In this document: one piece after another, positions 2,144 through 18,343 of the stretch
Layout: each line of letters begins with the position of its first letter
Position numbering within the stretch: position 1 is the first letter of the stretch
Virus record (IMG/VR): IMGVR_UViG_3300003324_000167
Location: 1-21,389 of that record
Origin: a virus
Direction: 5' to 3' (one strand)
DNA length: 21,389 bases
The notes under the pieces: model-generated
What the model saw: only the letters and a program-made list of their open reading frames with translations
Told to the model about the DNA's origin: nothing
The model's database searches: none
Translations under genes and position numbers: made by a program

Positions 2144-3186
2144 CACTTGCTAATGAGTTGGAGGATGAGGCTGTACACCCGTGGGTTGGGTTCGTTCTCT
2201 TTCATCCAACGCTTGACGCTTTCTGAGAAGTTGATGGCAGCGTCGCCCAGGCTGGCAAGTTCGGTCAGGAACTCCGTACCGTTTAGATAAGTGTCCTCAA
2301 ACTCCCTCTCAGCAGCCTCCGGGATTTCGATCCACTTGTCATGACTCACGTTGTACGATTTGGGTTTGATGGTCCCGTCGTTTCTCAGGAGTCCCATCAT
2401 CGGCTGGTAGGACCGTTCATCGATCTTACGTCTCATGAACGTTCCGTGATTGAAGATCTGACACCCGCTGACTGTACCTGTGAGGAAGCTTTTGTGATTG
2501 TCCCCGAATAGGGCGACGTCGTATCCATCTAGCATTTCCGTGAGGTTACGAATATGGTCTCCGTCGTCAGCCCCTGGGTAACCGCGTCCGTCGATCCATA
2601 CATACCGGTGCGCCAGGCACAGACGAAGTACGCCCGGGGTTACCTGCTCGACGTCTTCCAACGGTTTGAGTTTGACACCCCAGGGGAAGGCGTCGATGAT
2701 GACCTGCCTGGCTTCGTTGGTTGGACGGGGCAAGGCATAAGGCACGTTAGGTTGGATGTTGGTGATCTTGTCCGCTGCGCAGAGGGTCCAGTAGGCCGAC
2801 CGTTCGATCAAATCATAGCGATGAAATGGCAGATCATGCTGACCCGGGATTGCGTACATTGGCGGCATGTACTGGATGGCGAAGTTGATCAGTTCGGGCG
2901 GACACCGGTGTGGGCGCCAGCCGTCATCGAAAATGTCTCCAGCACATACGATCGGACAGTTGTGCTTATCCGCTTCCTGGCTTAGCTGTGAGAGGTAGGA
3001 CGCCATCACTCCGTACCAATCACTCTCAGCCGACCTTGCGATCGGGGGCTTGTGTGAGAGGTGGAGGTCGGAACACAGGACGGCGACGACGGGATTAGCT
3101 GACCGCACGTCGGACACTTCTTGACCCTTGACCTCAGTTCCTCGAGCTGCTTTGACGATTTGAGCAGTTCTTTCTCGATGCGACAT
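2143..3186 (-). CDS. Mre11/SbcD/gp47-like metallophosphoesterase nuclease
   Basis: Nuclease subunit of a Rad50-Mre11 (gp46-gp47, SbcCD) type complex that processes DNA ends in recombination and repair. Calcineurin-type metal-binding motifs appear in order: SDLHLSH (D40, H42), AGDIFDDG (around 82-89), GQHD (115-118, a variant of GNHD), LAHR, and FGDNH near residue 230. The 347 aa length suits phage gp47-type proteins. Start choice is uncertain. The ATG at 3186 gives about 35 residues before the first strand and has no clear ribosome binding site, whereas a GTG at 3117 has AGGG seven bases upstream. Either way the gene overlaps the Rad50 N-half gene extensively in another frame. It lies between the two Rad50 halves, as expected for a co-translated complex. 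Confidence 0.9.
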   Translation of the reverse strand: MSHRERTAQIVKAARGTEVKGQEVSDVRSANPVVAVLCSDLHLSHKPPIARSAESDWYGVMASYLSQLSQEADKHNCPIVCAGDIFDDGWRPHRCPPELINFAIQYMPPMYAIPGQHDLPFHRYDLIERSAYWTLCAADKITNIQPNVPYALPRPTNEARQVIIDAFPWGVKLKPLEDVEQVTPGVLRLCLAHRYVWIDGRGYPGADDGDHIRNLTEMLDGYDVALFGDNHKSFLTGTVSGCQIFNHGTFMRRKIDERSYQPMMGLLRNDGTIKPKSYNVSHDKWIEIPEAAEREFEDTYLNGTEFLTELASLGDAAINFSESVKRWMKENEPNPRVYSLILQLISK

Positions 3187-4112
3187 TTTCGCTTTCTCGC
3201 TTTCTTGAGATCAGTGATGAAATGTTCCAGGTCCCGACGGGCTTCGGCTGCCTTGTCGGCTTCCTTGCGAACAGCCAACAGAGGATTGATGTCAGGAACG
3301 ACGGTCCGAGTTAATGCTCGCGCTTGTTTGAGTCCGGTAATGATCTGTTCCAGGTCCGCCACTTCTTCCCGTAACTGTTGTGCCCGCTGACCCAGGGCGA
3401 CCACTTGCGCCCCTTCCTCTGCTGCCCTCCTGACAATCTTCAGGGTCCGGGCATATTCCTTACCCTGTTGAACCTTTGCCGTCAGGAGGGCGACCGCTCC
3501 CCGGGTTTCCTGGAGGTCAGCATCCAGCCGTTCCAGGACGGTAAGGCGCTTGTTGAACCTGACAGCCCATTCGGTGTCTCGTGCCTGCTGTCGAGCTTCC
3601 TCCAGACGGGTACGTGTCAGTTCGACGTTTGATTGCGCCCGTCTGACCTCCGAACTGGCAGCCGACATGGCGTTGTCAATCGAGCCAAGGTTGATGATCT
3701 GGTTGAGTTGCTTGCTGACTTGACCAGCAGACTCCGTAAACCAGAACGGAGGTTCGATCTGTTGCTGAAAGTTGAGTTCGTTGATTTGGAGTACCTTGGC
3801 GATCTCGTCCGGGACAGCCCCGACGCCGAATGATCGGAACTCCTTATCATCGAGCTTGTATGAGTTGATTTTGTCGCCTCGCTTCCGGACAACGGTATGT
3901 CCGTCAACGTACAGCTTGACCCAGGCGACCGGGGAACCCCACTTGATGAATTCATCACCAGAGGGTTGATTCAAACACACCCACCTCAGTGCCCGTAAAG
4001 CAGCACTCTTGCCAACGTCGTTAGATCCGACGATGGTTGTGACGTGTCGGTCAAACTCGATCACCAGTTTCCCGTGAGCCTGGAAACTGGTGATGATGAT
4101 CTTTTCGATCAT
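3006..4112 (-). CDS. Rad50/SbcC/gp46-like ATPase, N-terminal half with zinc hook
   Basis: N-terminal half of a Rad50-type ATPase. The ATP-binding lobe begins at once (MIEKIIITSFQAHG), with Walker A GSNDVGKS at residues 29-36. A Glu/Arg/Leu-rich coiled coil runs from about 130 to 330 and ends in KKCPTCGQLIP, a Rad50 zinc hook (C333, C336) that dimerises two molecules through zinc. The remaining 27 residues lie inside the Mre11-like gene and look like out-of-frame reading, so they may be tolerated sequence. There is no signature motif or Walker B; those are in the protein encoded at 1320-1898. The start ATG overlaps the upstream stop (TAATG). A chain split just after the hook tip leaves the two coiled-coil arms on different polypeptides. 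Confidence 0.88.
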   Translation of the reverse strand: MIEKIIITSFQAHGKLVIEFDRHVTTIVGSNDVGKSAALRALRWVCLNQPSGDEFIKWGSPVAWVKLYVDGHTVVRKRGDKINSYKLDDKEFRSFGVGAVPDEIAKVLQINELNFQQQIEPPFWFTESAGQVSKQLNQIINLGSIDNAMSAASSEVRRAQSNVELTRTRLEEARQQARDTEWAVRFNKRLTVLERLDADLQETRGAVALLTAKVQQGKEYARTLKIVRRAAEEGAQVVALGQRAQQLREEVADLEQIITGLKQARALTRTVVPDINPLLAVRKEADKAAEARRDLEHFITDLKKARKRKCRIEKELLKSSKQLEELRSRVKKCPTCGQLIPSSPSCVPTSTSHTSPRSQGRLRVIGTE

Positions 4113-6078: not shown

Positions 6079-6379
6079 GTTTAGACCACTCCTCATAGTC
6101 CGGGAATGACGTGGGAAACTCACCCACGTACACAAGGCTGCAGATGGTCTTGTCGGTCCCTGGCTTCGCTGGGTCAACGCCGATGTATCTGGTGCTGACA
6201 TTCTTGCGACGTTCGATCTCAGCCCGGAGGTAGACCACCAGATCCAACGCTTCCTCGTAGGCGTGCTGGAGCCAGTCCTCACGGGTGTCCATTGCACTTA
6301 CGGGTTTGCCATAGCGCTGGATGCCGACGTCGTGGCGCTGCTGCATGTCGGCGATGATGAGGTTCCACACGTCATCCAT
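6071..6379 (-). CDS. MazG-like all-alpha nucleotide pyrophosphohydrolase (putative)
   Basis: A 102-residue protein. Its first 60 residues form helices with the pattern RHDVGIQRYG followed by DWLQHAYEEALDLVVYL, resembling the EExxD helix of all-alpha NTP pyrophosphohydrolases of the MazG type found in many phages. Such enzymes hydrolyse (d)NTPs and may shape the nucleotide pool, fitting the NrdJ and ThyX genes here. The C-terminal 40 residues (from TRYIGVDPAKPGTDKT) look like a short extra beta segment. The start at 6379 makes an 8-nt ATGGATGA overlap with the recA-like stop. Only one motif supports the family, so catalysis is uncertain. Confidence 0.55.
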   Translation of the reverse strand: MDDVWNLIIADMQQRHDVGIQRYGKPVSAMDTREDWLQHAYEEALDLVVYLRAEIERRKNVSTRYIGVDPAKPGTDKTICSLVYVGEFPTSFPDYEEWSKRE

Positions 6380-7502
6380 AGCGGTTCTTCCTTTCGACCT
6401 GGCAGGCGTCTTCGATCTCACGCCAGCGCTTGGCTACCAACATCTGGATCTCACGTTCTCCGTCCTCATCCTCAATGTGACGGATGAGCTTTTCTCGCTT
6501 GCCCACAAAGTCAAACTCCGGGGCACGGATGCCGTTCTGGGTGTCCTTCCAGTGGCCTTCGTCTATTAAATAATCCACACAGGCGCCGACGTCGTCAATA
6601 CCGAATGAATGAAAGATCGGGATAACAGCCGACCTGTCCCGTCCTGTCTGGCGGTTCTTTTTGATTCGTACCTTCGCCTTAATACCTAGCTCACGGTTCT
6701 TGCCCTTAATTTTCTCGAAGATCTTCTCTTGTACGCTCGACCAGAGTTGGAGCGTTGAGTAGAACTTGAGGGCATGCCCGCCGCCCCCTGTCCGGTTGTC
6801 AGCCCCTGGACGGTTGGCGAACGGTCCTCCCGCTGCTGGCTTGTCGCGGGTCTGACCGACGATGATGAGAATTGAGCCGGTTTGCTTGAGCTTTGGTACG
6901 GCGGTACGGAGAAGTTGGGAGTTGAGTTTTGCCTTCGCCATCCCAAAGCTGCCAGCGTCTTCCCCCTGCTGGACCTTCTTGCCTTCGCGGAGCTTCCGCC
7001 GGGCGTTCTTCTGCTTGTCGTATTTCTTCTGGTCATCCCGGGGCACCAGTACGTCCATGCTATCACAGACGTAGATGCAAGGCCCTTTTGCGAGGGCGTT
7101 GTCGAGATGGTCGTAGAAGTCCTCAACGGTAACCGAGTATTGAGGGTTGTCCTGGGTGCCTGCTGGGGGCTGGACCCGGGCTGCCATCTTCGGTCCGAAG
7201 AACTTCTCAAAATCGAATAGAGCACCATTCTCGGCGTCATCATGGATGAGCCGATAGTTGTTGAACGATTTGTTGATGGAGGCTTCTGCAAGGCAGGTCA
7301 GACACAGGAACGTCTTGCCGCTGGAACTGTCCCCGACGAAATGATAGTAGTGTCCTTTGATGAAACCACCGCGCGGCTTCCCGGAACACGCCAGGTTCAG
7401 GAGGGTTGACCCGGTGCTCAGGTAATCACTTTCGGTGAAGCGAGCAGCCTTGTCACGCTTGGCGAGTAGCCGTTCCTTGATCTCGTCGGTGTCATCAGAC
7501 AT
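6372..7502 (-). CDS. RecA/UvsX-like recombinase
   Basis: Strand-exchange recombinase (376 aa). The RecA core is clear: Walker A GDSSSGKT (57-64), an acidic DDAENGALFD segment matching the RecA DAExALD region, Walker B IYVCDSMDVL (143-152), a strand ending in GQTRD (216-220), and a loop-2-like GGGGHALKFYST (239-250). The C-terminal third contains KAKVRIKKNRQTGR and a charged helical end. It would polymerise on ssDNA for homologous pairing and recombination-dependent replication. The ribosome binding site is GAGG seven bases before the ATG. Directly upstream is the predicted three-way-junction leader (7516-7592), and before that the SSB gene, so recombinase and SSB levels may be linked. A UvsY-like gene lies nearby. 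Confidence 0.92.
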   Translation of the reverse strand: MSDDTDEIKERLLAKRDKAARFTESDYLSTGSTLLNLACSGKPRGGFIKGHYYHFVGDSSSGKTFLCLTCLAEASINKSFNNYRLIHDDAENGALFDFEKFFGPKMAARVQPPAGTQDNPQYSVTVEDFYDHLDNALAKGPCIYVCDSMDVLVPRDDQKKYDKQKNARRKLREGKKVQQGEDAGSFGMAKAKLNSQLLRTAVPKLKQTGSILIIVGQTRDKPAAGGPFANRPGADNRTGGGGHALKFYSTLQLWSSVQEKIFEKIKGKNRELGIKAKVRIKKNRQTGRDRSAVIPIFHSFGIDDVGACVDYLIDEGHWKDTQNGIRAPEFDFVGKREKLIRHIEDEDGEREIQMLVAKRWREIEDACQVERKNRYG

Positions 7503-7515
7503 TCTGGAACCTCAA

Positions 7516-7592
7516 CAAGCGGGGAAGGTGATGACTTTTGCAGGGCCATCACTTTTCGATCCCGTTAGCTAGGCGGAATCTATCCCCGCTTG
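7516..7592 (-). promoter_or_regulatory. Predicted three-way-junction RNA leader of the recA-like gene
   Basis: On the minus strand the leader can fold into a closed three-way junction. The closing stem is a perfect 10-mer pair, CAAGCGGGGA (7592-7583) with TCCCCGCTTG (7525-7516). Hairpin 1 is GATTCCG (7580-7574) with CGGGATC (7564-7558), including one G-U pair and a 9-nt loop. Hairpin 2 is GTGATG (7552-7547) with CATCAC (7533-7528) and a 13-nt loop. Junction linkers are TA, GAAAA and CT. The closing stem ends 2 nt before the GAGG ribosome binding site of recA, a good place for translational control by a protein or small molecule. There is no U-tract. I do not match it to any known riboswitch class. 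Confidence 0.5.
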
Positions 7593-7595
7593 GTT

Positions 7596-7721
7596 TCAAG
7601 AGTGCTTCTTCTGGTCACAACCATCCCACACCGGACAGTCACGGCAGCCGGGTAGTCTGTCGGTGTCCCTGCCGTACGTTCCCCCTGCTGGGCACAGTAC
7701 GGTCGGCAGGGCGACGGCTAC
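7596..7721 (-). CDS. -1 frame extension of the SSB: predicted frameshift-encoded Cys4 module
   Basis: After a -1 slip at the end of the SSB gene, the new frame stays open for 41 codons to a TGA at 7598-7596. The peptide contains four cysteines (extension residues 10, 26, 29 and 35; C-x15-C-x2-C-x5-C) around GTYGRDTDRLPG and CPVWDGC, a pattern typical of a small metal-binding module. This frame has no ATG, GTG or TTG between its previous stop (within the SSB gene) and the module, so it cannot easily be an independent gene. The frameshift product would be about 476 aa against 435 aa for the normal SSB. An indel that broke an originally fused SSB gene is the main alternative. Confidence 0.6.
   Translation of the reverse strand, partial: VAVALPTVLCPAGGTYGRDTDRLPGCRDCPVWDGCDQKKHS
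7667..7711 (-). promoter_or_regulatory. Predicted frameshift-stimulating hairpin
   Basis: The minus-strand RNA can form CCCTG (7711-7707) with CAGGG (7671-7667), then CCGTAC (7702-7697) with GTACGG (7677-7672). This gives 11 base pairs with a 4-nt CCGA bulge on the 5' side; an inner CCC/GGG pair is possible. The stem starts 9 nt after the slippery heptamer, within the range expected for a -1 frameshift stimulator. It lies inside the coding sequence of the extension, so some pairing could be accidental. Confidence 0.5.
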
Positions 7722-9025
7722 TTTCCCCGTGGCTTCCTGACCGGCACGTCATCGTCGTCATCGTCATCGAATGCGACGTCCTTGCCAGTTTTCTTGATGG
7801 GCTTGCGCACGGGCAGCTCATCGTCATCGTCGTCATCCTGATCGTCGTCCGGCTCTTCCTTCTTCGGGGTGGGCTGCTTCCCCTTCGGTTTCGGTGGGGG
7901 AACATCGTCATCGTCGTCATCAGCGACGGGAGGACGCTTCTTCGGCGGTGGCGTCGGCTCATCATCGTCATCGTCTGCCGGCGGGGGCTTCTTCGCGGGT
8001 TCGTCCTTGAGCTTCTTGACCTCTGACGGCGCGATCGCCTTGTGAACGTCACCCTCCTTGTCCTTGATGCGAAGGCTGGTCCCGTCACCCGACACGTGGA
8101 TGATCTTGCAGACGCCGTACTCTTCGTGCTTGACCTTGTCCCCGATCTCCAAGCCCAGGTCCGCCGCGGTGGGGTCTTTGTTCTCCGACTCGTCATCATC
8201 GTCATCATCCGCGGGCGGTCGCTTCTTCGGCGGCGGGGTGTCGTCGTCATCGTCCGGTTGACTGGACGTCCTGGCGGTGTCCCGTTCTTCCTCCTCCCCG
8301 CCCTGGGTGTCCGGGTTCAGGAGTTTCGCCACATGGTCGTACCCGGGATCAACCAGCAAGGCGTCCAGGCACGGCGCCGAGTCGAGCATCTTGTCCTTAT
8401 AGGTGTACTTCCGTGGCAGGAAGTCGATGCGCGTCGCAGCGTTGAACTTCCCGCCCGGCCAGGTCTGCTCCTTGACCGACAGTTGGAGGGTGTAGCCGCC
8501 GTCCAGCTCGAAGAAACTGGCGTAATCGGCTACGCTGGTGATCGCTTCCGCAAGCATCTCCCCGAACCCGAGTCCCCTGTTGTAGTGGTTCGTGTCGAAC
8601 ACCTTGAGGGGGTTGGCGGAATCACCCGGCTTGTCGTTGACCACCCACAGGTGTCGGGTGGTCGTGCGCAGGGACTTCACGAGGTTCTGATCCGCCGTAC
8701 CGCCCTGCATTCGCAGGAAATCACATGCGGCACACTTCTTCCCGAAACACTTCATGCGACAGCAGAACATCCGGTTGCCGTCCGGCGTCGGGATGCGGTG
8801 GGCTTCGTACTCCCGTTCAAAGTGGATGTCCCCTTCCTGGGCGCGCGGGTTGTTCTTCCCGACGATGTACGGCATCACGTCGATCCGGTACACGCCGACC
8901 TTGTCGAGCTTGTACTGTACGACGCCCTCCGGGAGCTTGATCTGGGACTCGAACGAGCGCTCCTGCTGCTTCGCCCAATTAAGGGCGTTCGTCTTCTGGC
9001 GTTCGCGTCGGCTTCGGTCGCTCAT
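7718..9025 (-). CDS. gp32-like single-stranded DNA-binding protein with Asp-rich tail and SH3/Tudor-like domain
   Basis: ssDNA-binding protein (435 aa) for replication and recombination. Residues 1-30 are basic and polar; about 30-235 look like a gp32-type OB-fold core with an inserted zinc-binding-like motif (C88, C89, C93, C98, C101, in CCRMKCFGKKCAACDFL). After residue 245 comes a long tail with Asp runs at about 258-262, 273-278, 351-355, 369-374, 393-402 and 420-426, separated by Pro/Lys linkers such as TPPPKKRPP. Embedded at about 288-340 is a compact domain starting GLEIGDKVKHEEYGV, like small SH3/Tudor/KOW barrels. Acidic SSB tails usually recruit partner proteins. The start at 9025 is set by GGAGG four bases upstream. 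The gene ends at a putative frameshift site. Confidence 0.85.
   Translation of the reverse strand: MSDRSRRERQKTNALNWAKQQERSFESQIKLPEGVVQYKLDKVGVYRIDVMPYIVGKNNPRAQEGDIHFEREYEAHRIPTPDGNRMFCCRMKCFGKKCAACDFLRMQGGTADQNLVKSLRTTTRHLWVVNDKPGDSANPLKVFDTNHYNRGLGFGEMLAEAITSVADYASFFELDGGYTLQLSVKEQTWPGGKFNAATRIDFLPRKYTYKDKMLDSAPCLDALLVDPGYDHVAKLLNPDTQGGEEEERDTARTSSQPDDDDDTPPPKKRPPADDDDDDESENKDPTAADLGLEIGDKVKHEEYGVCKIIHVSGDGTSLRIKDKEGDVHKAIAPSEVKKLKDEPAKKPPPADDDDDEPTPPPKKRPPVADDDDDDVPPPKPKGKQPTPKKEEPDDDQDDDDDDELPVRKPIKKTGKDVAFDDDDDDDVPVRKPRGK
7721..7727 (-). promoter_or_regulatory. Slippery heptamer G GGA AAG before the SSB stop codon
   Basis: The SSB frame ends CGG GGA AAG TAG, so the last seven sense bases are G GGA AAG. 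This fits the X XXY YYZ rule for -1 slippage and is the same heptamer used at the lambda G/T junction (established knowledge). In the -1 frame the next codon is GTA, which avoids the UAG. The adjacent stop in the zero frame, a hairpin 9 nt downstream, and an open -1 frame with clustered cysteines together make a programmed site likely. Confidence 0.65.
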
Positions 9026-9179
9026 GTAACCTCCGTAATACATCCGCCATTCTGATTACGATCTTGTGCGTTGCGGATGCGTGCGCACAAGTCCCAACGT
9101 ACACAGACACGTAGACAATTGAGGGCACAGCAATCAGCGCAAGGACGAAGTAGTAAAACAGGATCAGAGGATCAACCAT
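8979..9179 (-). CDS. Small single-pass membrane protein (putative)
   Basis: A 66-residue open frame beginning with an 8-nt ATGGTTGA overlap with the UvsY-like stop and ending 47 nt inside the SSB gene. Residues 4-28 are a clear hydrophobic segment (PLILFYYFVLALIAVPSIVY), followed by a cationic C-terminal part (RMADVLRRLHERPKP), suggesting a short extracellular N-terminus and a cytoplasmic tail. It fills a gap of about 146 nt that would otherwise be empty, and GGGAG lies 11 bases before its ATG. The function is unknown. The 3' overlap with the SSB start and ribosome binding site is the main reason for caution. Confidence 0.5.
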   Translation of the reverse strand: MVDPLILFYYFVLALIAVPSIVYVSVYVGTCAHASATHKIVIRMADVLRRLHERPKPTRTPEDERP

Positions 9180-9663
9180 CGTCGGATGACTCCCGTGTGG
9201 GCGCAAAGGCGCGGTCCCGAAGTCTCTTACCCATGTTCTCACGCACGGTGCCGTTGACGTGCTTCCGGACCCTGGGCGTGGCGAAGTAGTCTTGACCGTG
9301 CAGGGTAACCAAGTTCTCCAGGGCGCGCTTACGGTGCTCCAACGAATCCACGGCTGCTTGGTAGACGTCAACCCTGTACTTTTGCCGGTTGACCTCCCGA
9401 AGCGCTAGGACGTACTCCCGTTGAAGCAGGGTAGCAGCCTCGACGCCTTTGTCGGTGAGTTTGGTGAGACCGAACTTGCCCGGGTTCTGACGGATAGCCA
9501 GAGACACTTCCGAACACGTGACGTCAAGTTCGGCCTTCGCTTCCGCCAGGTCGGCTTTCGCCTGGGCTAGCTTGATCGCATACTTGTGGAAGAGTGCAGG
9601 CTGACGAAGCCATTCCTGATCAAGCTGAGACTCGTCGATCTGCGTGAAGGACTCAGTTCCCAT
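9172..9663 (-). CDS. UvsY-like recombination mediator (putative)
   Basis: A 163-residue, strongly helical protein: a long amphipathic helix rich in Ala, Lys, Asp and Glu (KYAIKLAQAKADLAEAKAEL), a short IRQNPGKFGLTKLT turn, then helices through VDVYQAAVDSLEHRKRALEN and a basic end. No enzymatic motif is visible. Its composition, size and place between the clamp loader and SSB genes, close to recA, suit a UvsY-like mediator that helps load the recombinase onto SSB-coated ssDNA; this type of phage protein is often assigned that role. The assignment rests on context and helical pattern, not on a diagnostic motif. The start is the ATG at 9663, with GAGG upstream. Confidence 0.5.
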   Translation of the reverse strand: MGTESFTQIDESQLDQEWLRQPALFHKYAIKLAQAKADLAEAKAELDVTCSEVSLAIRQNPGKFGLTKLTDKGVEAATLLQREYVLALREVNRQKYRVDVYQAAVDSLEHRKRALENLVTLHGQDYFATPRVRKHVNGTVRENMGKRLRDRAFAPTRESSDDG

Positions 9664-9697: not shown

Positions 9698-10612
9698 TTA
9701 CTTCGTTTGACACACCTCCCAGCAGGCAAGGACCAGACCGGGCTTCCCGCAGTCGTACCAATGATCGCGAAACCGGTCGAGGATGATAGCAGCCCTGGGC
9801 ATGCCGGAATTCAGTAGCACCGCGGAGGCGTACCCGAGTATGAGCCGACGAATCGACTCGGGATCTTCCTCACAGGCTTTCACCAGTCCCTTCACCTCAG
9901 CCCACGGCTTCTTGCCGATGAGGGCCTTAGCGATGGCGATAGCCTGGACCTTGACATCCGACGACAGGATGATCTTGATTCGGTCCTCGTCAGAGTCGAT
10001 GTCGATCACTTGACCGAGGAGGACCAGCGCTTTCCGCGGGGAACCGTCTGCTACCTCACAGATTCGTGAGAGGCATTCCGGTCCCATTTCCTTGCCTTCC
10101 TTCTCCAGAACGTCCCGGATCAGGTCCTCCAGTTTGTCCTGCGGGACGGGCTGACACCTGACCTCAGTACAGCGGGTGATGATCGCCTTGATGAGTTTGT
10201 TCGGCTCCGTCGTGCAGAGCATGAAATACACGTGCCGGGGCGTGTCCTCTAGCATTTTGAGGATAGCGTTCTGGGCATCGTTGGTGAGCTTGTGGGCTTC
10301 GTCGATAAGCCACACGCGGGTTTTTCCCGACACCGGCGCCAGGCGCATCCGCTGGTCGATCTCACGAACGGTGTCGATACCACGGAAGTTCGCTGTGTTG
10401 ACCTCGTAAAAGTCTGAATCACCGCACTCGATCTTACCGCGGACGATCCGTGCAAGCGTCGTCTTCCCGCAGCCGGACGGTCCGGTGAACAGCAGGGCAT
10501 GTGGGACCTTCTTGCCCTTGGTCATTGACAGGAGAGTTTTGCAGGCTTCCTCCTGACCGATGACACCCTTGAACGCGGTCGGGCGGTGTTTCTTGTACAG
10601 CTCTTCAGACAT
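9698..10612 (-). CDS. AAA+ sliding clamp loader ATPase (gp44/RFC-small/DnaX-like)
   Basis: ATPase subunit that opens the sliding clamp and places it on primed DNA. It begins with the clamp-loader signature ELYKKHRPTAFKGVIGQEE, followed by Walker A GPSGCGKT (44-51), Walker B VWLIDEAH (100-107), a sensor-1-like CTTEPNKL (133-140) and TRC (146-148) in place of the usual SRC arginine-finger motif. A helical collar follows. At 304 aa it is short, like T4 gp44 and RFC small subunits, and it lacks the DnaX zinc module. No partner subunit gene is visible in the window. The clamp it would load is probably encoded at 18901-20292. The start is supported by GAGG five bases upstream. Confidence 0.9.
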   Translation of the reverse strand: MSEELYKKHRPTAFKGVIGQEEACKTLLSMTKGKKVPHALLFTGPSGCGKTTLARIVRGKIECGDSDFYEVNTANFRGIDTVREIDQRMRLAPVSGKTRVWLIDEAHKLTNDAQNAILKMLEDTPRHVYFMLCTTEPNKLIKAIITRCTEVRCQPVPQDKLEDLIRDVLEKEGKEMGPECLSRICEVADGSPRKALVLLGQVIDIDSDEDRIKIILSSDVKVQAIAIAKALIGKKPWAEVKGLVKACEEDPESIRRLILGYASAVLLNSGMPRAAIILDRFRDHWYDCGKPGLVLACWEVCQTK

Positions 10613-11499: not shown

Positions 11500-12930
11500 C
11501 TAGACTCCCATTCCCCACACGCCGTCCTTCTTGTGCCACTTCCCCTTGTCAAGCCAACTCTTGCCCGGCGGTGCGACCTCTACCTCCACTTCCAGGGGCA
11601 CGACAATCCAAGGCCAGTGCTGGGGAAGGTCCTGCGCCATGATCTTACGCGCTTTGTCGATCACCAGATCCAACTCATCTTCGTGTACGTCACAGATCAT
11701 AGAGTCGTGGATCTGACCGACGATACGGGACCGTAGGTTGTGCTTGACCATCCACTTCTGGAGTTTGATTAGGCACCAGAGCAAGCAGTGGAAGGCTGAC
11801 CCCTGAGTCTGGAAGTTCAGCACTTGGTTGCGGCGAAGAACCATACCGGAACACACGAACCCTGTATGGAGTTTGATGTACCCGGTCCGCTGGTACTTCT
11901 CCCACGTGCGCTTCTTCCACTGGGTGTACACAGGAAACCGATCGTTCCAGAACGAATCCTCGATAGTCTTGACATGGAACTCAAAGGTTCCTGTCCGGGG
12001 CTTGTGGTCCGGGTCGCAGTCTCCCAGCTCCGTTATTCCGTTCTCCCTCAGATGTTCATCCATGGTCTTATCACCGACCATGAGTTTCATCTTATGCATC
12101 TCTTCCCAGATGTTCCGGGCACAGGACGCATAGAAGTCGCCGTAGAATTGCGGGAACACGAATTTGTTCTTCGCAACGTGTCGGGCTGACTTGTTAGCCT
12201 TTATCTGCTCCTTGGTAAGGAAGAAAAGCTGCTGTCCGGTGTCGCCGTGCATGTCGGTAGTCTTATCCGACACGTACTTGATTAAGGTAGGGTCGTGGTG
12301 GTAGCAGCAGGATATACCTACCTCAATACCCTTGAAATCGAATTCGACAATCTGGTGTCCTGGACGCGGGATGAAGCACCGCCGAATGATCTCCCGCATC
12401 ATCTCGATGCGGGTCGGTATGTTCTGGAAGTTCGGGGAGTCGCTGGAACTCCGGTACGAGATGGCGATGTTGAGGTTGAAAAAGGGATGCAGGTAGCCCT
12501 TGTCATCAACCTCACGCAACAACCCCCTCAAGTACGTGTTACGGATTTTCTTCAGCTTCTCAAGCCGGAAGAACTCTTTCACGAACGGAACGTCTACGTG
12601 ATCGAAAGCAGCCTCGTCTGCTTTGAACCCACGCCCAGACGTGTTGAAACCCTTACTCGAGTACCCCATCTCACCGAATACAAGCTGGGCGAGTTGGTTC
12701 TTACTGCCCAGGTTCGCCCGGTCGCCGAAACGACGTCGCCACTTCCGCCAAATGGGGTCTGCCAGTAGCTCCGTCTCAAGTTCTTTGATGGTTTCGGTGG
12801 TGGAAGCGAACGTATGATTCAGATACTCCAGGTCAATCCGAATACCGTTCGCTTCCACTTGGCTAAGTGCCAGCGTGCCTTGATGGAACAGATCGTAGGC
12901 TTCTGGGCTTGCGACCTTCACGTCATTCAT
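11500..12930 (-). CDS. Family A DNA polymerase core (polymerase domain only)
   Basis: Replicative or repair DNA polymerase of the PolI family, reduced to the polymerase domain (476 aa). Motif A is IVEFDFKGIEVG with the metal-binding Asp at 198; motif B is around R250, K254 and YG 263-264 (ARHVAKNKFVFPQFYG); motif C is QIHDSM with H409 and D410. NFQNIP (168-173) and QTQGSAFH (375-382) are further family A landmarks. No 3'-5' exonuclease domain precedes the thumb; a matching one is encoded with a uracil-DNA glycosylase at 17120-18343. The 5' nuclease is also separate (5209-6078). The start is set by an 8-nt ATGAATGA overlap with the upstream gene. Motif A has Lys-Gly in place of the common Ser-Gln. 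Confidence 0.93.
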   Translation of the reverse strand: MNDVKVASPEAYDLFHQGTLALSQVEANGIRIDLEYLNHTFASTTETIKELETELLADPIWRKWRRRFGDRANLGSKNQLAQLVFGEMGYSSKGFNTSGRGFKADEAAFDHVDVPFVKEFFRLEKLKKIRNTYLRGLLREVDDKGYLHPFFNLNIAISYRSSSDSPNFQNIPTRIEMMREIIRRCFIPRPGHQIVEFDFKGIEVGISCCYHHDPTLIKYVSDKTTDMHGDTGQQLFFLTKEQIKANKSARHVAKNKFVFPQFYGDFYASCARNIWEEMHKMKLMVGDKTMDEHLRENGITELGDCDPDHKPRTGTFEFHVKTIEDSFWNDRFPVYTQWKKRTWEKYQRTGYIKLHTGFVCSGMVLRRNQVLNFQTQGSAFHCLLWCLIKLQKWMVKHNLRSRIVGQIHDSMICDVHEDELDLVIDKARKIMAQDLPQHWPWIVVPLEVEVEVAPPGKSWLDKGKWHKKDGVWGMGV

Positions 12931-16954: not shown

Positions 16955-17142
16955 TTTGCTTTGTCTCGTAGCCTGGCGAACATCTCCCTGATCAACTGTT
17001 CAGCATAGCGGATAGCGTTCTGCTCTACGTCCTCCCAGCAGCCCTCAAGTGTCTTTGTCAGTGTCCCGACAGTCGTTTTCATGCCTGTAGGAGTCGTTAA
17101 GCCTCCTCCTACCGACAGTTCAAAAACGATCTGTGCGTCCAT
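16951..17142 (-). CDS. Small protein of unknown function
   Basis: A 63-residue protein overlapping the end of the UDG-exonuclease gene by 23 nt. The start at 17142 is preferred because GGAGG lies nine bases upstream; the frame extends to 17184 without a better signal. It has a beta-like N-terminus (MDAQIVFELSVGGG), a Gly/Thr loop and a charged amphipathic helix (EDVEQNAIRYAEQLIREMFA). No family is recognised. Confidence 0.55.
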   Translation of the reverse strand: MDAQIVFELSVGGGLTTPTGMKTTVGTLTKTLEGCWEDVEQNAIRYAEQLIREMFARLRDKAK

Positions 17143-18343
17143 AGCCCAGAGCCTCCATCTGCAGTGTGCCGACCTTGTACTCAAGAAGAGAGTCTAGACC
17201 GCAGTACATGAGTAGGTCATTTAAACTCACCTCATGTATGCGGTTCTGGGCGTTCCCACCGCCTTCCTTCGGCTTGAGACTGTCTTCTATGTGTTCGTTG
17301 TACCCAGGCTGTCCCAAGCGCACGAACGCCTGGAACTTGAGGCCTGTGATGTCTGGTCGGTGGTCGAGTACGTGAGCACCTAGCATCCCGTCCCACAGCC
17401 AACCCTGGACCTGAACGCCCAGCTTCGCACGGACCCAACGATCCTCAAACTTGATGTTGTATCCGATCTTCCTGTATTGGGGGCTGGCCAGCAGGTCCCG
17501 CATCCGGTGTATGACCTTACCACACCACGGAAACACGACCGACTCCTTGCCCTCCCAACACACGGAACAGCAAACGATCCGACCGTCCTTATTATCGGGC
17601 TTGAGTCGGTCGGTTTCAAAATCAAATGCTAGAGTACCGGTCACCTGGAGGTACTTGTCCAGTTGGGCAGCAGCCTCATCCGGGTTTAGAATGATACGGA
17701 CTTTGGATCGATAGTCCGGGACCTTCCGCCAGGGACGGCCCTCCAGGCTGACAGCCCGTGCCAGGTGGTCCTCAAACATCTGGTCGAGGACCTGCTCCTT
17801 TGCACGGAGGACGTACGATGGGTGGTACGTTGGACAGATCCAAGTGTTGAGCTTCTGACAGGGGATCTGCCAACCGACCCAGCGTCCGATCTCCCCAACG
17901 TCATGATTCCACAACCATCCGATCAAACTCTTAACCGCTGACTTACCCAGCGGGATAATGATCTCTGGTTGGAGTTCATCGATGGTCTTGATCAGGTTGG
18001 GCCGACAATAGTCAATCATCTTTTCGTCTTTGATCTCGTTCTTCGGTGGACGACAGATCAAAGCGTTAGTGAACCAGCAGTCGCGGTTCGGGTCCAGCCT
18101 CAGACGCTTCAACGTGTCCCGGAGTAGCTGTCCCGTCACCCCGACGAACTGCACACCGTTGCGGTCCTCGTCAGCCCCTGGCGCTTCCCCAACGACCAGT
18201 ATCCGACGTCTGCCCTTACCCGACGGCGGCATCTTGGGTGTGCGACAACCCGACTCAAGCAGCCCACAAGCGCCACACTGCGCGACCATAGTCACTGGCG
18301 CTTTAACTAGCTTGAGTTCGGATCGTTTGAAGAAACCCTCCAT
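17120..18343 (-). CDS. Family 4 uracil-DNA glycosylase fused to DEDDy 3'-5' exonuclease
   Basis: A two-domain protein of 407 aa. Residues 20-200 are a family 4 type uracil-DNA glycosylase: GEAPG (52-56) with EDRNG and FVG, HPSYVLR (174-180), and the four cysteines expected for a [4Fe-4S] cluster (C23, C26, C97 in CRPP, C113 in CRP). Residues 210-407 are a family A type proofreading exonuclease: D241 and E243 in AFDFETD, N296 and D301 in YNIKFED, and Y380/D384 in YCGLD. The polymerase domain that normally follows is encoded about 4 kb downstream (11500-12930). Phage SPO1-type polymerases join a UDG-like domain, exonuclease and polymerase in one chain, so this looks like a split version. The ATG overlaps the upstream stop (TGATG). 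Confidence 0.85.
   Translation of the reverse strand: MEGFFKRSELKLVKAPVTMVAQCGACGLLESGCRTPKMPPSGKGRRRILVVGEAPGADEDRNGVQFVGVTGQLLRDTLKRLRLDPNRDCWFTNALICRPPKNEIKDEKMIDYCRPNLIKTIDELQPEIIIPLGKSAVKSLIGWLWNHDVGEIGRWVGWQIPCQKLNTWICPTYHPSYVLRAKEQVLDQMFEDHLARAVSLEGRPWRKVPDYRSKVRIILNPDEAAAQLDKYLQVTGTLAFDFETDRLKPDNKDGRIVCCSVCWEGKESVVFPWCGKVIHRMRDLLASPQYRKIGYNIKFEDRWVRAKLGVQVQGWLWDGMLGAHVLDHRPDITGLKFQAFVRLGQPGYNEHIEDSLKPKEGGGNAQNRIHEVSLNDLLMYCGLDSLLEYKVGTLQMEALGYGRTDRF

Follow-up and report, generated by a model that had tools for sequence, protein, structure and literature searches.

A probable programmed -1 frameshift at the end of a gp32-like SSB gene would append a Cys4 module in an uncultured phage

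The tails of single-stranded-DNA-binding proteins (SSBs) select which partners reach single-stranded DNA, and frameshifting in phages is known mainly from tail chaperones. To our knowledge, no frameshift is known in T4 gp32. The heptamers G_GGA_AAG, A_AAA_AAG and A_AAA_AAC are established -1 sites, the first of them also being used by the haloarchaeal virus HCTV-5, and lambda makes gpGT by low-level -1 shifting (PMC5009743). In some dnaX genes, the slip site is immediately followed by the 0-frame stop, so that the longer form results from frameshifting (PMC5009743). We describe here a locus at the end of an SSB gene that resembles lambda gpG/gpGT and the related tail-assembly chaperones: a dsDNA phage, an X_XXY_YYZ heptamer and a -1 shift near the gene end, by which a C-terminal domain would be fused to a minor fraction of the product, as it is in lambda (PMC5009743). 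The lambda protein is, however, a structural assembly chaperone and no replication protein, and its T domain is unrelated, whereas the SSB heptamer directly precedes the stop and the Cys4 domain is found in frame in relatives. Bacterial dnaX (tau/gamma) has in common with the SSB that it encodes a replication protein with two C-terminal forms and uses A_AAA_AAG (PMC5009743), but its product is a clamp-loader ATPase with a large C-terminal domain, made at a near 1:1 ratio in E. coli. The cytidine deaminase of B. subtilis (A_CGA_AAG) is likewise extended at its C-terminus by a -1 shift; unlike the SSB case, this event is described as incidental, adds no conserved domain and involves no tandem re-pairing heptamer. 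The gp32 proteins of T4 and RB69 (PF08804, phrog_1192) share with the SSB studied here the core fold, a Cys-rich core motif and an acidic tail, but the Cys4 tail module is absent from them. The mechanism is already known; here it would concern a new gene class and a new domain, with repeated evolution. A sequence-only reading of this DNA knew of no described frameshift in a gp32-like SSB, and our search of the open-access literature likewise found no frameshifted SSB or gp32; the case is absent from the consulted parts of three papers on frameshifting (PMC3711429, PMC5009743, PMC10885494). We consider it very likely that programmed -1 frameshifting would yield a major SSB and a minor SSB carrying a Cys4 module, probably a partner-recruitment tag. 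The module, fused in frame in most relatives, would thereby be rationed in this lineage and several others.

The window, that is, the whole stretch of DNA analysed, comprises 21,389 bases and is a virus record in IMG/VR. It carries on its minus strand a phage replication and recombination cluster composed of clamp, UDG/3'-5' exonuclease, RNR, ThyX, DNA polymerase A, clamp loader, UvsY-like protein, SSB and RecA, together with split Rad50-like and Mre11-like genes. The clamp loader subunit (9698..10612) and the UvsY-like protein (9172..9663) are the conserved upstream neighbours of the SSB (7718..9043), and the RecA/UvsX-like recombinase (6372..7502), also a conserved neighbour, is the next gene downstream, all on the minus strand. 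As the sequence-only reading had described, the minus-strand SSB frame (9043-7718) terminates in CGG GGA AAG TAG, in which the heptamer G_GGA_AAG (7721..7727) is directly followed by the 0-frame stop TAG (7718..7720). It is the single in-phase X_XXY_YYZ heptamer across all 441 codons of the gene, and codon shuffling puts at about 0.06 the chance that the short overlap of the two frames contains any heptamer. Between the slip site and a TGA at 7598-7596, the -1 frame (7596..7727) is open for 41 codons beyond GGG AAA, with the translation GKVAVALPTVLCPAGGTYGRDTDRLPGCRDCPVWDGCDQKKHS. Its cysteines follow the spacing C-x15-C-x2-C-x5-C, a Trp lies between the last two of them, and no ATG, GTG or TTG precedes the first; in both respects, the earlier description of this frame proved correct. 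The same holds for a 9-nt spacer separating the heptamer from a bulged hairpin (7667..7711), a candidate stimulator of the shift.

The 0-frame product, a 441-residue protein with a long Asp-rich tail, can be assigned to the gp32-like SSBs on predicted core fold and sequence family. Taken alone, the window SSB matched no gp32 entry in Pfam or PHROG; among the 67 aligned relatives of the core alignment, 50 matched Pfam gp32 and 58 the PHROG SSB family. The AF2 model of the window SSB core (pLDDT 88) has as its best PDB folds the gp32 cores of T4 and RB69 (1gpc, 2a1k). At about residues 295-345, between acidic stretches of the window SSB, lies a segment (GDKVKHEEYGVCKIIHV...) that is PcrA/UvrD-tudor-like with a sub-threshold Pfam value of 7e-4, and similar segments are present in the SSB tails of three relatives (L030, L016 and L041, the prefix L denoting loci and contigs of relatives).

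The decisive evidence that the -1 frame of the window is not a product of chance is its homology to an HMM built solely from in-frame modules (E 9.9e-12). The seeds were 116 non-redundant Cys4 modules fused in frame at the C-terminus of homologous gp32-like SSBs of other phages. Seven residues (C12, P13, G19, C28, C31, W34 and C37) are invariant in 66 aligned modules, and all seven are present in the window, where the core of the module, CPAGGTYGRDTDRLPGCRDCPVWDGC, occupies 7617..7694 on the minus strand; its pattern is expected 0 times in shuffles of the window. AF2 predicts a compact and confident fold, 31 of 43 residues having a pLDDT of at least 90, and together with the four invariant cysteines this is what would be looked for in a Cys4 domain. 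Searches of Pfam, PHROGs and NCBIfam returned nothing convincing, and the PDB gave no match by sequence or fold; the only similarity to a known zinc or Fe-S fold was a chance-level EndIII 4Fe match. On sequence and predicted structure, the Cys4 module is thus a new domain without convincing match in these four collections. Pattern scans recovered at least 120 viral stretches; a further 23, some of them chance matches, were in contigs of bacterial and archaeal genomes. Most likely, the module coordinates a metal or an Fe-S cluster; the spacing of its terminal C-x2-C-x5-C is, we presume, similar to that of the Fe-S ligands of EndoIII and of AddB/Cas4-type proteins. It probably acts as a small recruitment tag for a replication or recombination partner, as suggested by its position at the C-terminal tip of the SSB, which it replaces or precedes, and by a second small protein that bears the same Cys4 module in addition to the SSB and is encoded between the clamp loader and the UvsY-like protein (L119, 3586-4051; L099, 5390-5978). 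In L122 and L260, the -1 product terminates in DDLPF, like bacterial SSB tips. In L080 (190-500, minus strand), the -1 extension is longer, with two DnaJ-like zinc repeats (CxxCxGxG) ahead of the Cys4 module.

Single-protein scans of IMG/VR with the SSB, polA or RNR did not find relatives. With the clamp loader as bait, 67 IMG/VR loci from metagenomic collections were fetched, most of which encode a homologue of the SSB (24-35% identity). The Cys4 module stands in frame at the end of many of these homologues, and in L031, L061 and L075 it lies in the -1 frame directly after the SSB stop; these three stem from one metagenome (3300037245), though their sequences are clearly distinct. A comparison of the SSB and the module with 50,697 phage records gave zero matches, so that no cultured phage in that collection has such an SSB and module. 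The final tally comprises 175 in-frame matches, 14 distinct -1 contigs including the window, one +1 case and one in-frame TAG. The sequence-only reading had looked to in-frame SSB fusions, or to related genomes with GGGAAAG and the same shift, for support. In-frame fusions are indeed abundant (about 150-175 matches in metagenomic phage contigs) and the -1 offset at the SSB end is kept in the 14 contigs, but GGGAAAG itself is kept in none of the relatives. The 14 derive from 15 loci with a detected SSB, which include two contigs twice, and from L226, where the end of the contig truncates the SSB; 11 came from searches blind to the slip site, and L241, L244 and L260 from a scan requiring an A-rich site before a stop-like codon. 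Left out of this set are L219, where the offset is +1 and falls, about 250 nt upstream of the module, in the G-run of an acidic repeat, and L125, which has an in-frame TAG; each is probably an indel or point change, or another kind of recoding. In L125 (7056-7350), the module continues in the same frame past the internal TAG (AAG to TAG in a Lys-rich repeat), by readthrough, point change or error.

In all 14 contigs, an in-phase heptamer lies where both frames are open (7727-7721 in the window), and in nine it is flush with the stop; among 146 fused genes, the 45 nt preceding the module contain a heptamer in 24, and A-type heptamers are common by chance in Lys-rich tails. The window has G_GGA_AAG TAG, its relative L241 A_AAA_AAG TAG, and L031, L222 and L226 A_AAA_AAG TAA. 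L061 and L075 have A_AAA_AAA before TAA or TAG, and L225 has A_AAA_AAC TGA. In L080, L122, L260 and L244, A_AAA_AAG or A_AAA_AAA stands 0-6 nt from the stop, and in L223 and L224 A_AAA_AAA precedes the out-of-frame module and the 0-frame stop follows after a further 36-42 nt. Since relatives use A_AAA_AAG, A_AAA_AAA or A_AAA_AAC, what is conserved is a slippery heptamer at the stop rather than its exact letters; a scan for further GGGAAAR-stop cases gave two matches only, both in-frame fusions. Pairwise differences among the -1 modules number 822, 804 and 1437 at -1-frame codon positions 1, 2 and 3, and the -1 frame appears to evolve like coding sequence, with its offset conserved. The gene order clamp, UDG/exonuclease, polA, clamp loader, UvsY, SSB, module and RecA is common to nearly all -1 contigs that are long enough. 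In L241 (1184-1400), the end of the -1 module and the RecA start apparently overlap in different frames, and the shared DNA would then code twice.

Sequencing or assembly indels might have artificially split a normal in-frame SSB fusion, which is the state of most relatives, and several -1 cases do lie within A9-A10 runs, where indels are likeliest. We nevertheless judge this very improbable. The cases at the junction are all -1 with zero +1, the stop adjoins the heptamer in most of them, and runs do not exceed A6 in the window, L031, L225 or L241. In addition, the window and L241 have the same offset and the same 26 nt from the stop to the first Cys, despite SSB cores that are about 33% identical. 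L122 and L260, which come from different metagenomes, differ in the lengths of both A-runs but agree in net frame, an argument against homopolymer errors. The A-runs also bear on the proposal that RNA polymerase slippage makes the longer product and the ribosome is not involved. A9 runs slip in transcription (PMC5009743), and such slippage is possible at the A9 or longer runs of L061, L075, L222, L226, L080, L122, L260, L223, L224 and L244; it is unavailable to the window (GGGGAAAG) and to L031, L225 and L241 (A6), and we regard it as the least probable of the alternatives.

The overlap of the stop with the -1 frame, like that of coupled genes, could point instead to a separate small protein made by re-initiation or coupling after the SSB stop. 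This is scarcely more probable: 13 of the 14 -1 frames are without ATG, GTG or TTG, the first Cys mostly comes two codons past the slip site, and the module is the C-terminal domain of the SSB in relatives. It may also be asked whether the -1 frame is a pseudogene remnant, left by a frameshift mutation in a lineage that is losing the module, given that 13 complete loci of relatives are without any module. We find such a relic about as improbable as an assembly artefact, since the seven invariant residues are intact, the differences show a third-position excess, the -1 modules of the 14 contigs contain zero internal stops, and the offset is kept between the window and L241. The preferred reading, a -1 frameshift giving two SSB forms as the sequence-only reading had proposed, is thus supported by the in-frame homologues and by the 14 contigs that keep the offset, and it is this comparison that argues for the shift.

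We propose that most ribosomes on the SSB mRNA would stop at the TAG and release the 441-residue SSB, and that a fraction would re-pair on GGG AAA, one base back at G_GGA_AAG, helped by the adjoining stop codon and probably also by the hairpin 9 nt downstream. The slipped ribosomes would add 41 residues with the conserved four-cysteine module, resulting in two SSB pools, with and without it. A stop beside the heptamer would set up a race of release factor against slippage, and the ratio of products could set the number of tagged SSB molecules per filament. In most relatives, where the module is fused in frame, every SSB carries it. The window hairpin (-24.5 kcal/mol, z = -1.9) is modest taken alone, since 10 of 200 shuffles fold as well; its z ranges from -1.9 to -2.5 against shuffles. 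The RNA 3' of the slip sites has a mean z of -0.99 over 60 nt, versus -0.11 for the corresponding region of fused genes (p = 0.011), and of -1.6 over 90 nt, versus -0.3 (p = 0.005). Folding is strongest in L225, L031, L075, L061 and, over 60 nt, the window; significant structure is absent from about half of the -1 cases. No Rfam family matched the hairpin region, and a role of the hairpin as terminator was rejected, there being no T-run and no terminator-like site.

At the evolutionary level, the sister of the window SSB is that of L241, a 77-kb contig, with support 99/97, and the two heptamers differ; the window is a long branch, so that the exact depth is unsure. On the careful tree, the -1 label needs eight changes, at least five of them forced by well-supported branches. 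Three occur in a mostly fused clade (L080, L122/L260 and L244), the others in a clade that mixes -1, fused and module-less SSBs. Because frame states are interspersed on the tree, common deep inheritance of a single shift site is unsupported. It can be hypothesised, tentatively and at somewhat less than even likelihood, that in this large uncultured phage family the SSB repeatedly switches among always tagged, never tagged and -1-tagged states, the slip site at the stop setting the tagged fraction and perhaps regulating it through termination speed, with the Cys4 module being transferable. If true, the SSB would be the first one known to be recoded, and recruitment at the fork or in recombination would be subject to dosage control. 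A genetically fixed ratio of tagged to untagged SSB would tune partner access in a new way, the locus would add a replication and recombination protein to phage frameshifting, and the repeated change between fused and frameshifted states would offer a natural experiment on why recoding is selected.

Other features of the window were noted in passing. The RecA leader is flanked by an inverted repeat, AAGCGGGGA / TCCCCGCTT at 7517-7525 and 7583-7591, which has GTGATG...CATCAC as its inner stem and is a possible RNA control element. The Rad50/gp46-like ATPase is apparently split at its zinc hook (3006-4112 and 1320-1898): the N-half terminates in CPTCG, the C-half forms a gene of its own, and the Mre11-like gene lies between the two. 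DNA polymerase I is also split (11500-12930 and 17120-18343), one gene encoding UDG together with 3'-5' exonuclease and a second one the polymerase domain, with RNR and ThyX between them; the UDG/exonuclease and polymerase pieces match separate places in related contigs too.
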